Of a DNA stretch of 64,000 bases, positions 14,302-20,498 are shown piece by piece (position 1 is the stretch's first letter; every line of letters begins with the position of its first letter). A program made the position numbers and the translations under genes. This DNA is from Stigmatella aurantiaca. GTDB taxonomy: Bacteria > Myxococcota > Myxococcia > Myxococcales > Myxococcaceae. The DNA is taken from NCBI RefSeq assembly GCF_900109545.1, contig NZ_FOAP01000027.1:1-64000 (forward strand), in the 5' to 3' direction. Below the pieces are notes generated by a model, which had not been told where the DNA came from, searched no databases, and saw only the letters and a program-made list of their open reading frames with translations.

Positions 14302-14368
14302 AGATTCGGGGCCCTTGAAAAGGCGCTGAACATCTGTGCAGATGGTGGGCCTACCTCGGAGGTCCACC

Positions 14369-14887
14369 ATGTTCGATCCGTCCGGAAATGATCCCATTTC
14401 TCCCTCGATGCAGGACTTGTTGAAGCTGTTCGGCCAGGAGCTGGCCGCGGTGAAGTTCCCCGATGTGGACCGCGGGGTGCTGGAAGAGGCGGCCGCGCGG
14501 GTGAAGCAGAAGGCGGACGAGGTGGCCAAGGCGCAGGCGGCGCTCGAGGCGGCGCGCCAGGCGCTGTACGAGGGCCAGGAGGCGCTCCTGCAGAAGGGGC
14601 AGCGGGCGCTGGCCTACGCGCGCATCTTCGCCGAGGAGGACGCGGAGCTGAGCGCGAAGCTGGACACCATCAGCCTGCCCCGGCCGGTGCGCAAGGCGCC
14701 CCGGGTGGAGGGCACGCTGGTGCAGGACCCGCAGGCCGCCGCGCCCGGAGAGGATGCCGCGCCGCGCCGCCGGGGCCGTCCGCCGAAGGCCCGCGCCAGC
14801 GCGCAGCTGTTCGCCGATGGCGCCTCGCCGGAGGCCATCGCCGCGGCGGAGGCCGAGCCGGTCAACGGCGCGCTGCACACCGCCTGA
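14369..14887 (+). CDS. Hypothetical coiled-coil protein with AT-hook-like motif
   Basis: A 172-residue soluble protein not matched to any family I know. Residues about 35-90 are a continuous Ala/Glu/Lys helix (LEEAAARVKQKADEVAKAQA onward), probably coiled coil. Residues about 133-141 read RRRGRPPKA, which matches the RGRP core of AT-hook minor-groove DNA-binding motifs. The tail is Ala/Glu-rich. AT-hook proteins are known regulators in myxobacteria, but a single hook gives only a suggestion. ATG 14369 is chosen over 14336: gtccacc precedes it and the extra 11 residues look non-coding. It stands alone before the tRNA gene. Confidence 0.7.
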   Translation: MFDPSGNDPISPSMQDLLKLFGQELAAVKFPDVDRGVLEEAAARVKQKADEVAKAQAALEAARQALYEGQEALLQKGQRALAYARIFAEEDAELSAKLDTISLPRPVRKAPRVEGTLVQDPQAAAPGEDAAPRRRGRPPKARASAQLFADGASPEAIAAAEAEPVNGALHTA

Positions 14888-15062: not shown

Positions 15063-15137
15063 CTGGGGCGTCGTCTAATGGCAGGACGTCAGACTTTGAA
15101 TCTGATTATCAAGGTTCGAATCCTTGCGCCCCAGCCA
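15063..15137 (+). tRNA. tRNA-Gln (anticodon TTG)
   Basis: A complete cloverleaf. The acceptor stem pairs TGGGGCG with CGCCCCA (7 bp), followed by discriminator G and an encoded CCA at 15135-15137. The anticodon stem is TCAGA/TCTGA around loop CTTTGAA, so the anticodon is TTG, reading CAA/CAG glutamine codons. The T-arm is CAAGG-TTCGAAT-CCTTG and the D-arm contains GTCTAATGGCAGGAC. A CTCCC...GGGAG hairpin at 15143-15175 may end the transcript. Confidence 0.96.
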
Positions 15138-15198: not shown

Positions 15199-15726
15199 AT
15201 GACACGGAAGGTGCTCCTCCTGGTCACCGTGGGTCAGCCTGCCACTTCCCTGCTCAAGGACTTCGAAGAGCCGCTGTCCACGCACCTGGGCGTGCAGGCG
15301 GTGGCGGGCAAGACGGCCCTGTCCCGGCCGGACTATGCCTTCAACAAGAGCCGGTCCCAGTACCACTGCAATGCCATCCTGCGCCGGCTGGTGACGCTCC
15401 AGGAGCCCTCGCACGCGATGGTGCTGGGCATCACCGACGTGGACCTCTTCGTGCCGGACACGGCCTTCGTCTTCGGCGAGGCGGACCGCGAGTCCCGGAG
15501 CGCCGTGGTGAGCGATGCCCGGCTGCGCGCGGGCGCGGGCCCCGAGCTGGTGCGCCGCCGCGCGCAGGTGGAGGCGCTCCACCAGGTGGGGCACCTGCTG
15601 GGGCTGTCCTTCTGCGAGGACACGCGCTGCCTCATGTCGCTGGCGCAGACGCCGCAGGACGTCGACCGCAAGCAGCTGGCGCTCTGCAACCCGTGCCGCA
15701 ACGAGCTGAACAAGCTTCAGCGCTAA
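15199..15726 (+). CDS. Archaemetzincin-like protein with altered catalytic motif
   Basis: A 175-residue protein with the archaemetzincin plan: central GITDVDLFVPDTAFVFGEA, then the zinc region at 128-146 and a CNPC pair at 163-166. The family signature is HExxHxxGxxHC-x4-CxM-x16/17-CxxC. Here the sequence is HQVGHLLGLSFC-EDTR-CLM: the catalytic Glu is Gln129 and the third zinc-binding His is Phe138, while all four structural-zinc cysteines (139, 144, 163, 166) are kept. It is therefore probably not an active peptidase but may keep its fold and a structural zinc. ATG 15199 is chosen because the fold starts there; earlier codons overlap the tRNA. Confidence 0.85.
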   Translation: MTRKVLLLVTVGQPATSLLKDFEEPLSTHLGVQAVAGKTALSRPDYAFNKSRSQYHCNAILRRLVTLQEPSHAMVLGITDVDLFVPDTAFVFGEADRESRSAVVSDARLRAGAGPELVRRRAQVEALHQVGHLLGLSFCEDTRCLMSLAQTPQDVDRKQLALCNPCRNELNKLQR

Positions 15727-15799: not shown

Positions 15800-16762
15800 A
15801 TGAAGCAACTTGGATGGAAGGCCGGCGCGCTGGTGCTCGCGCTGGCACTGACGGCGTGCGAGGACCTCCAGTTCGGTGACGGTGGCGGCGGTGGTGGCGG
15901 CGGCAGCGTGCTGTTCAGCCGCGGCTTCGTCTTCGTGCGCGAGGACCGCAACCTCTACGTGGTGGATGACCGGGGCGATGCGAATGACCCCCAGCGGCTC
16001 ACCACGGGGGGCGGCGTCTCCCACCCCTCGGTGGACCGCTCCGGCCGCCTCGCCGTCTTCGTGCAGCAGACCTCGGACTTCACCTTTGAGATTCGCACGG
16101 TGCCCACGGCGGGCACGGGCGCGCCCTCCACGGTCATCGCCTCGGGGGACACGGCGTGCCGCACCTGCACCCAGTTCCGCTACCCTACGTTCAGCCCGGA
16201 CGGCCGGGTCATCGTGTTCTCGTTCAATGATGGCACGGGCGCGCTGTCGCTCGGCCGGGTGAACGTGGACGGCAGTGGTTTCCAGGAGCTCACCCCCAAC
16301 ACCTCCGTGTCCTTCGGGGCGCCGTCCTTCTATCCGGACGGGCTGAGCGTGCTGGTGCCCGCGGGCTTCAACAGCGGCTACCTCAACCAGCTCAAGCGCG
16401 TCACCCTGGCCAACGGCGTGATTGCCAACATCGCCGACAACCTCAACAGCGAGGTGGTGAACCGCGCGGTGGTGTCGCCGGATGGCTCCCAGGTGGTGTT
16501 CGATGGCGGCCCCGTCTCGGGCTCCCGCATCTACGTGGCCTCGCTGCGCCCCTCGTTCGGGACGCCCACCCGCCTGACGGACCACCCGGGCGAGCCCCGC
16601 GCGCAGGACACCTACCCGAGCTGGATGAGCGCCAACCAGGTGGGCTTCCTCTCCAATGCGGGCAACACCCAGAGCATCTACCGCATCACCGTGGGGGCCG
16701 TGACCGGCGCGGGCACGTTCCTCATCCCCACGGCGGCCGAGCCCTCGTACGGGGGCCTCTGA
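15800..16762 (+). CDS. TolB/PD40-like beta-propeller lipoprotein
   Basis: A 320-residue lipoprotein: signal peptide with LALTAC, lipid-bearing Cys near residue 20, then a Gly-rich spacer. Repeats of the PD40/TolB type follow, seen as TFSPDGRVIVFSF, SFYPDGLSVLVP, VVSPDGSQVVFDGG and PSWMSANQVGFLS, each with R-L-T or similar turns between blades. Such proteins sit on the periplasmic side of a membrane and bind other proteins; enzymatic activity is unlikely. A CRTC pair lies in one loop. It precedes the ankyrin gene by 92 bases on the same strand. Confidence 0.85.
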   Translation: MKQLGWKAGALVLALALTACEDLQFGDGGGGGGGGSVLFSRGFVFVREDRNLYVVDDRGDANDPQRLTTGGGVSHPSVDRSGRLAVFVQQTSDFTFEIRTVPTAGTGAPSTVIASGDTACRTCTQFRYPTFSPDGRVIVFSFNDGTGALSLGRVNVDGSGFQELTPNTSVSFGAPSFYPDGLSVLVPAGFNSGYLNQLKRVTLANGVIANIADNLNSEVVNRAVVSPDGSQVVFDGGPVSGSRIYVASLRPSFGTPTRLTDHPGEPRAQDTYPSWMSANQVGFLSNAGNTQSIYRITVGAVTGAGTFLIPTAAEPSYGGL

Positions 16763-17999: not shown

Positions 18000-20159
18000 T
18001 TACTCGGGCTTGGGGCTCACCGTGGCGCTGGGCGACACCGTGGCGGGGCTTCGCCGGATCTCCATGGCGTCCGCCACCAGCTCGGTGATGTCCTTCACCT
18101 GGATGTTCTCCTCGCGGCCGGTGTCGTTCACCGCGTCCTTGAGCATCGTGGAGCAGAACGGGCACGCCACGGCCACCACGCCCGTGCCGCCCTTCTCCTT
18201 GTAGTCGCCCACCTGGCCCGGCTTCTTCTTGTCCGTGGCGTCCGGGTACGGCGTGGAGGCGTCCGTGGCGTGCTGCAGCGTGAGCGCCACCTCGTTGATG
18301 CGGTTGTGGTTGATGCGCGTGCCGATGTGCTCCTCCATCCACATGCGTCCGCCACCGGCGCCGCAGCAGAAGCCCTCGCGCTTGCTGCGCTGCATCTCCA
18401 CCACCTCCAGGCCCGGGATGGCCTTGAGCACCTCGCGCGGCGCGTCGTACACGCCGTTGTGGCGGCCCAGGTAGCAGGGGTCGTGGTAGGTGAGCTTCGA
18501 GTTCATCACCTGCGAGAGCTTGATGCGCTTCTCGTTCAGCAAGTCGTTGATGAGCTGCGTGTGGTTGATGACGCGGTAGTCCCCGCCGAACTCCGGGTAC
18601 TCGTTCTTGATGGTGTTGAAGCAGTGCGGGCACTGGGTGATGACCGCCTTCACCCCCAGCCCGTTCCACGTCTCCACGTTCGTCTTCGCCATCGTCTGGT
18701 ACAGGTACTCGTTGCCCATGCGGCGCGCGGACTCGCCGTTGCAGACTTCCTGCTTGGACAGCGTGGCGAAGCTCACCCCGGCCTCGCGCAGGATTTTCAC
18801 CAGCGCGCGGCTCACCTTCTTCTGCTTGTCGTCGTAGCTGCCCGCGCAGCCCACGAAGAACAGGTACTCGTACGGGCCGCCGCCGTCACCCCAGGTGGGC
18901 AGCGCCAGGTCCTCCGCCCACTCGTCGCGCCGGTCCTGGCCCAGGCCCCAGGGGTTGCCCTGGCGCTCGATGCCCTCGAAGACGCGCTGAATCTCCGGCG
19001 GGAACTCCGCCTTCACCTGCACCTGGTAGCGGCGCATGTCGATGAGGCGCGGGATGTTCTCGATGAACACCGGACAGGCCGTCTCGCACCAGCCGCAGCT
19101 CGTGCACGCCCACACCGTCTCGGCCTTCAGCGCGCTGCCGACGATTTCGGGCAGGGCCTCCTTCACGCCGTTGGGGCCATAGCCCTCTTCCACCCAGCGC
19201 TCGTGGTCCCAGATCCAGTGCTTGAGGTCCTGGTTGACGCCCTTGTGCGTGAGCGGCTTGCCGGTGATGTACGTGGGGCAGTGCGTCTGGCAGCGGCCGC
19301 ACTCGGTGCAGGAGTAGAGGTCCAGGCCCTGCTTCCAGGTGAGGTCCTTCACCGTGGCGGTGCCGAACTCCTCCTTCTCCAGGTTGGGCGTGCCCAGCTT
19401 GCCGTTGGCGTGGGTGCGCTGGAAGAAGACGTTGGGCAGGCCGGTGATGATGTGGAAGTGCTTGCCCAGGGGCAGGAAGTTCAGGAACGCCAGGATGATG
19501 GTCAGGTGGATCCAGAACCCGGCCAGACCCACCACGTGGGCCGCCGTGGGGCCGAGCGCGAACATGCCCAGGCCGAACACGCTCGTGGTGGGCTCCCACC
19601 ACACGAAGCCGCCGTCCTGGGCCACCATGTGGCTGCCGCCGAAGAGGAACTCCGTCACCATCAGCGCGCCGATGAAGCCCAGGATGAGGTAGGCCTCCCA
19701 CGAGGGCGTCACCCGGTCCGGCTTCACCTTGGCGCGGAAGAAGACGAAGTAGGCCACGCCCAGCACCGCCAGCGTCGCCACCACGTCCTTCACCAGCAGG
19801 TAGACCTTGTAGAGCCCGAGCAGCAGGGGCTGGCCGGCCCAGAACGGATCCGACAGGTTCGTGAGCACCTCCAGCGCGGTGGTGCTGAAGCCCATGGCGA
19901 ACAGCATCAGGGTGCGCACCGCCAGCACCATGAACGCCGCGTAGATGAAGATGTGCATCAAGCCCGGCGTGAACTCCTCCGGGTCCACCATGCGCTTCTG
20001 GCCCAGGCCGAAGCGCAGGAGCTGCATGGCGCGGAAGGGGATGTTGTCCAGCCGGTTCTCCCCCTTCATCGCGAGCAGGACGCCGGCACGGCCCGCCATG
20101 GTCATGACGAAGACGGAGAGAGCTACCGCGAGGAGCAAACCTGTGATGATGGGACTCAT
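18000..20159 (-). CDS. Membrane (Fe-S) oxidoreductase, EtfD/HdrD-like
   Basis: A 719-residue integral membrane protein. Residues 1-235 hold about six membrane helices like the gamma subunit of nitrate reductase, with His residues that could bind haem. Two 4Fe-4S motifs follow: CTECGRC...CP at 284-294 and CTSCGWC...CP at 352-362. Two cysteine-rich CCG domains then occur, the first around VGCAGSYDD/CPHC, the second HDPCYLGR...GFCCGAGGG. This order is that of EtfD-type proteins, which take electrons from electron-transfer flavoprotein during acyl-CoA oxidation and pass them to menaquinone. No etfAB genes are adjacent. ATG 20159 starts the first helix; upstream codons to 20258 do not look coding. 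Confidence 0.88.
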   Translation of the reverse strand: MSPIITGLLLAVALSVFVMTMAGRAGVLLAMKGENRLDNIPFRAMQLLRFGLGQKRMVDPEEFTPGLMHIFIYAAFMVLAVRTLMLFAMGFSTTALEVLTNLSDPFWAGQPLLLGLYKVYLLVKDVVATLAVLGVAYFVFFRAKVKPDRVTPSWEAYLILGFIGALMVTEFLFGGSHMVAQDGGFVWWEPTTSVFGLGMFALGPTAAHVVGLAGFWIHLTIILAFLNFLPLGKHFHIITGLPNVFFQRTHANGKLGTPNLEKEEFGTATVKDLTWKQGLDLYSCTECGRCQTHCPTYITGKPLTHKGVNQDLKHWIWDHERWVEEGYGPNGVKEALPEIVGSALKAETVWACTSCGWCETACPVFIENIPRLIDMRRYQVQVKAEFPPEIQRVFEGIERQGNPWGLGQDRRDEWAEDLALPTWGDGGGPYEYLFFVGCAGSYDDKQKKVSRALVKILREAGVSFATLSKQEVCNGESARRMGNEYLYQTMAKTNVETWNGLGVKAVITQCPHCFNTIKNEYPEFGGDYRVINHTQLINDLLNEKRIKLSQVMNSKLTYHDPCYLGRHNGVYDAPREVLKAIPGLEVVEMQRSKREGFCCGAGGGRMWMEEHIGTRINHNRINEVALTLQHATDASTPYPDATDKKKPGQVGDYKEKGGTGVVAVACPFCSTMLKDAVNDTGREENIQVKDITELVADAMEIRRSPATVSPSATVSPKPE

Positions 20160-20498
20160 GGGGTTCCAGTGTGCGCGAAGCCCGGGACAAGAGGGGACTT
20201 CCCGATGCCGCGAAGCGGCATAACGCCTCCAAGCTAACAGGGTTGATTCATGAATCAAGCGCCCCTTGCACCCGGTGTTCCGGGGCCGGCACGTGGGGGG
20301 CCCTGGTCCCCCGGAGCGGGGCTGTAAACCCGGGGCACCGGAGGGGATTCCCGGCGGGGAGGGGCGGTGGCGCCGCCCTTTGCTCTGGGGCAGGCGGCCA
20401 GGCAGCCCTGCCTCCCAGACCGTGGGAGGGGCAACGGTTTACAACGCGGGAGGCCATGCCCATCGTGGACGTAAATCGGTCAACGCGAGGGGTGCGGC
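20160..20498. other. Intergenic region with a widely spaced inverted repeat
   Basis: No gene is supported here. A short inverted repeat TGTAAACC (20323-20330) and GGTTTACA (20437-20444), 106 bases apart, brackets a GC-rich stretch. It lies between the start of the EtfD-like gene (minus strand) and a small acidic ORF (plus strand), so the two half-sites could be operators for a looping or spaced-site regulator. Only the repeat itself is directly seen. Confidence 0.4.

Follow-up and report, generated by a model that had tools for sequence, protein, structure and literature searches.

An archaemetzincin with a degenerate active site

The window analysed here is a stretch of 64,000 nucleotides of Stigmatella aurantiaca (contig NZ_FOAP01000027.1, positions 1 to 64,000). 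Its features around a tRNA-Gln gene are collected in Table 1. The gene at 15199-15726 translates into a protein of 175 aa reading HQVGHLLGLSFCEDTRCLM...CNPC, which belongs to the M54 peptidases by both sequence and fold. It matches Pfam Peptidase_M54 (PF07998) with 62.4 bits against a cut-off of 24.4, and its predicted structure (pLDDT 95.3) finds its best PDB match in the archaemetzincin 2x7m (Z 25.9, rmsd 1.8 over 172 residues). The fold is thus predicted to be intact. The archaeal archaemetzincins AmzA (PDB 2x7m, 3zvs/4axq) and 3lmc share the fold of the model over its full length, with Z values of 23-26. Unlike the window protein, they carry the complete HExxHxxGxxHC motif. In standard assays, however, archaeal AfAmzA showed no activity of its own (PMC3427221).

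Where an active M54 peptidase has HExxHxxGxxH, the window protein reads HQVGHLLGLSF, in the layout H128-Q129-VG-H132-LLGLS-F138-C139. His128 and His132 are retained, while Gln129 replaces the catalytic Glu and Phe138 the third zinc His. The four-cysteine pattern of active M54 proteins, Cx4CxM...CxxC, is present. The original prediction, which had named Gln129, Phe138 and four intact cysteines, proved right in every detail. The codons at the four motif sites are CAC/CAG/CAC/TTC, and since the nearest genome (96% identical protein) carries the same four, a sequencing error is ruled out.

Table 1. Coordinates of features at the locus within the window.
Feature	Position	Strand	Remark
tRNA-Gln, anticodon TTG	15064..15137	+	directly upstream, 61 nt before ATG
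Pseudo-archaemetzincin (NCBIfam NF033824, Myxo_non_zincin)	15199..15726	+	175 aa, ATG start
Degenerate active-site motif HQVGHLLGLSFC	15580..15615	+	residues 128-139
Four structural-zinc cysteines 139, 144, 163, 166 and Met-turn Met146	15613..15696	+	all five invariant in 81/81 orthologues
PD40 (WD40-like) protein gene, downstream	15800..16762	+	near 73/81 orthologues
Fe-S binding protein gene	18000..20258	-	syntenic locus marker in families f1, f2, f5, f6

Loss of the catalytic residues across a lineage

The window protein scores 321.5 bits against NF033824, 'non-proteolytic archaemetzincin-like protein', an equivalog-level model with a curated cut-off of 250, and does not differ from this family. 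The archaemetzincin fold devoid of peptidase residues is therefore already catalogued by NCBIfam, and the pseudo-enzyme call as such is known. In our sample of the phylum, NF033824 exceeds its cut-off in 90 of 179 genomes, all of them in the window's own family. Our literature search found no papers naming NF033824, and neither M54 nor CarG is mentioned in a review from 2024 on inactive homologues of metallopeptidases.

We aligned 160 M54 proteins, among them three solved archaeal ones. A tree of all 160 rows was built with a quick method, and a careful tree was computed for 64 sequences. On the full tree, a single clade (SH-aLRT 96) unites the 81 distinct orthologues of the window's family, and it is recovered with bootstrap 100 and SH-aLRT 98 when the motif columns are omitted. 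None of the 81 has the third zinc His; 73 carry Tyr there and 8, including the window protein, the rarer Phe. The Glu position holds Gln in 72 orthologues, Leu in 6, His in 1 and Glu in only two, which read HEAGHxxGLSY. The first His is kept in 79; the exceptions, with Asn and Thr, are two species congeneric with that of the window. All 81 have the second His, Gly, Met and four Cys in common. On the question raised by the original prediction, whether this is a conserved lineage or a single mutation, the answer is a lineage: with the third His gone from 81/81 and Glu from 79/81, close relatives do not carry HE and His at these sites, and a lone mutation is ruled out. Read from the sequences, the residue loss in the window's family is shown to have one old origin. 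The codons fit single steps, CAC -> TAC -> TTC and GAG -> CAG, in the direction that we take as the probable one.

This pattern poses the question whether some chemistry has survived. In the forms with Tyr a residual metal site may in principle exist, because both remaining His are so widely kept and Tyr could ligate a metal. His128, His132 and Tyr138, or a water molecule, would then hold the metal for a different chemistry or for weak hydrolysis. The two His, the Tyr (73/81) and the Gln (72/81) are conserved more strongly than a dead site left to drift would require. We nevertheless consider such an enzyme unlikely: in the window's own branch, at least, a three-ligand site cannot form, because Phe stands at the Tyr position there and the closest congeners have also lost the first His (Asn, Thr).

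Linkage to tRNA-Gln(TTG)

In 80/81 orthologues, tRNA-Gln(TTG) lies directly upstream on the same strand. The same holds, with a tRNA-Gln, for order-level orthologues from two other families, f5 and f6. The only other tRNA-Gln match in the window's genome is tRNA-Gln(CTG). With starts chosen by a simple rule, the distances from tRNA to start are mostly about 25-70 nt, and only 1/96 has a T5 run in the 60 nt that follow the tRNA. Because of these short distances and the scarcity of T5 runs, co-transcription of the tRNA and the pseudo-archaemetzincin gene is plausible. A gapless alignment gave no clear promoter consensus ahead of the tRNA, and a sigma-70 scan found no promoter there.

A class-level relative (L105, 959-1743) carries an intact archaemetzincin with tRNA-Gln(TTG) close upstream on the opposite strand, and the tRNA-Gln linkage may therefore predate the order. 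The window also encodes, at 14336-14887 (+), a small protein with an AT-hook-like RRRGRPPK segment, whose coding region stops about 180 nt ahead of the tRNA-Gln. It has no Pfam match, and near the locus its homologues occur within the genus and in a single further one (G116).

Apparent repeated loss of activity at one locus

Five orthologues from family f5 (L071, L137, L138, L139 and L142) share the tRNA-Gln and Fe-S gene neighbours and are 45-49% identical to the window protein. Unlike it, they have an intact HExxHxxGxxHC. Other f5 genera read HATGH, HGVGH, HQLGH or HAAGQ at the same locus and retain the third His. In the f6 copies all ligands are gone (VAVGK, WAVGL), and the f2 copy reads DAVGQ and has the Fe-S neighbour without the tRNA. 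As some relatives at this locus are intact and others are degenerate in different ways, catalysis has apparently been lost several times at the tRNA-Gln locus while the fold was kept. The 64-sequence tree, from which the four motif columns were excluded, requires five changes between intact and degenerate labels, a count that takes in a few sequences from outside the locus; well-supported branches make three of the changes unavoidable. If losses are assumed to be irreversible, we read about seven from this tree; the exact number is soft, since a single base change can turn Gln or Ala back into Glu and reversal is thus possible. Our searches found no record of the tRNA-Gln linkage or of repeated loss of activity for NF033824, nor of intact and degenerate orthologues side by side.

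Outside this group, three proteins of another M54 group in family f17 (L103, L106, L107) read HQLGLIRGLAHC, having lost Glu and the second His and retained the third. This f17 group represents a further, separate degeneration.

Repeated loss of catalytic residues might also mean that the gene is a neutral relic, decaying while it is carried along with an essential tRNA-Gln. In line with this, the protein was not found in genus g20 (G025, G147, G148), a genus of the window's family with small genomes of 2.1-2.7 Mb, where weak matches to the NF033824 model lie far below the cut-off. We regard the relic as quite improbable, however, since there are no internal stops among the matches listed, and 45 positions are near-invariant across the 81 sequences, many of them outside the motif. 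Apart from the lost residues, these include P44, A47, N49, K50, R52, Q54, H56, G77, D80, D82, L83, F84, P86, G93, A95, D96, R97, R108, R120 and R121; many near-invariant positions are common to the intact relatives. dN/dS is also below 1. With NG86, values are 0.22-0.24 for close pairs from within the window's genus and 0.49 for the closest pair (with few changes present), and the median over all pairs is 0.42, a figure inflated by saturated dS. With YN00, the median of 15 pairs is 0.045, and two congeneric pairs come out at 0.12-0.13. All dS values are rough owing to GC-rich codons, and both methods say that the coding sequence is under purifying selection. The gene at 15199-15726 does not look like a relic.

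G025 retains a CarG match and a tRNA-Gln. In a further genome, G104, the gene and tRNA-Gln(TTG) are both missing from the assembly, which points to an assembly gap; a real absence of the gene was therefore rejected.

Comparison with CarG

The inactive archaemetzincin already known from myxobacteria is CarG, which lacks protease activity, binds zinc and works via CarD (PMC8156234; PMC9304148). It does not bind DNA, forms one unit with CarD and is made from a carD-carG operon (PMC8156234; PMC9304148; PMC3427221). Like the window protein, CarG of Myxococcus xanthus is an inactive archaemetzincin of about 170 aa with Glu replaced by Gln and the four Cys kept; its motif is HQx2Hx2Ex2HCx4CxMx16Cx2C (PMC8156234). 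Could the window protein be CarG itself, a CarD partner regulating ECF-sigma promoters? Fold family, size (170-175 aa) and the Glu -> Gln change are common to both, and an inactive archaemetzincin is what the CarG literature describes.

We give this identity next to no credence, as synteny, motif and tree all rule it out. The window's genome has its own carD-carG pair on another contig (C6, L091 1997-3450), where a CarD of 306 aa with RGRPP AT-hooks is directly followed by a CarG reading HQLGHLWELHHC with the third His kept. The window gene, in contrast, lies behind tRNA-Gln and not directly downstream of carD, and its motif HQVGHLLGLSFC keeps the Gly, often Glu in CarG, and has the third His replaced. 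A CarG match was present in 59/59 relatives searched. CarG forms its own clade (SH-aLRT 100) in which the third His is kept in 32/32, and 0/32 CarG loci have a tRNA-Gln upstream. The window genome's CarG scores 24 bits against NF033824, and CarG shows a genuine, though distant, profile match to the window's group, at 24% identity.

Within CarG, the first His is Gln in 11/32 sequences and the third Cys is Asp in 3/32, while a full HExxH...H survives in a few (L094, L098). CarG also seems to have decayed stepwise. The degenerations of CarG and of the window's family are best read as independent, because CarG loses Glu and sometimes the first His, whereas the window's family loses Glu and the third His.

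Many pseudo-enzymes are decoys or regulators of active cousins. The window protein might likewise act on an active archaemetzincin produced alongside it in the cell, and some relatives do have extra HExxH M54 proteins (e.g. G002, G003). The window genome, however, has only two M54 matches, the window protein and CarG, and Glu is lost in both. With both genes degenerate and no third found, we rejected the idea that the protein regulates an active M54 relative encoded here, and a decoy role appears very improbable.

Discussion

We favour the view, with a probability of roughly 0.6, that the gene encodes a pseudopeptidase: a protein that keeps the fold and the Cys4 site, does not perform the usual metzincin cleavage, acts by protein-protein contacts and is probably expressed from a transcript beginning ahead of tRNA-Gln(TTG). 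The pseudo-enzyme reading of the original prediction is well supported by the absence of the third His and Glu from nearly the whole clade, a fold predicted to be intact and purifying selection. From these residues we infer that the window protein lacks peptidase activity. With the third catalytic-zinc ligand (His -> Tyr/Phe) and the general base (Glu -> Gln) gone, peptide cleavage of the usual metzincin type is not expected.

The four cysteines would hold a structural zinc that stabilises a binding module. Action would most likely proceed through protein-protein contacts, the old substrate cleft being the probable docking surface. The paralogue CarG, a non-DNA-binding partner of CarD that holds two zinc atoms, offers a possible model for this mode. 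A binding or regulatory role is suggested by CarG and by the conservation; as CarG and the window clade are distant and form separate clades, a common mode of action would be an analogy. The transcript probably starts ahead of tRNA-Gln(TTG), so that tRNA and protein may be expressed together.

A wider picture can be drawn tentatively, and we hold it as possible rather than probable. A tRNA-Gln-linked archaemetzincin may have stayed at one locus from the time of the order's ancestor, in a role without need of proteolysis, so that the active site was lost repeatedly while fold, structural zinc and tRNA linkage were kept. It would be a second, CarD-independent pseudo-archaemetzincin regulator of myxobacteria, perhaps coupled to tRNA-Gln(UUG) in expression or function.

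Taken together, this protease fold appears to have been inactivated in myxobacteria on at least two occasions, in CarG, a proven transcription-factor partner, and in the window's family. The presence of intact and degenerate versions at one orthologous locus provides a system for asking why a peptidase fold that does not cut is kept.
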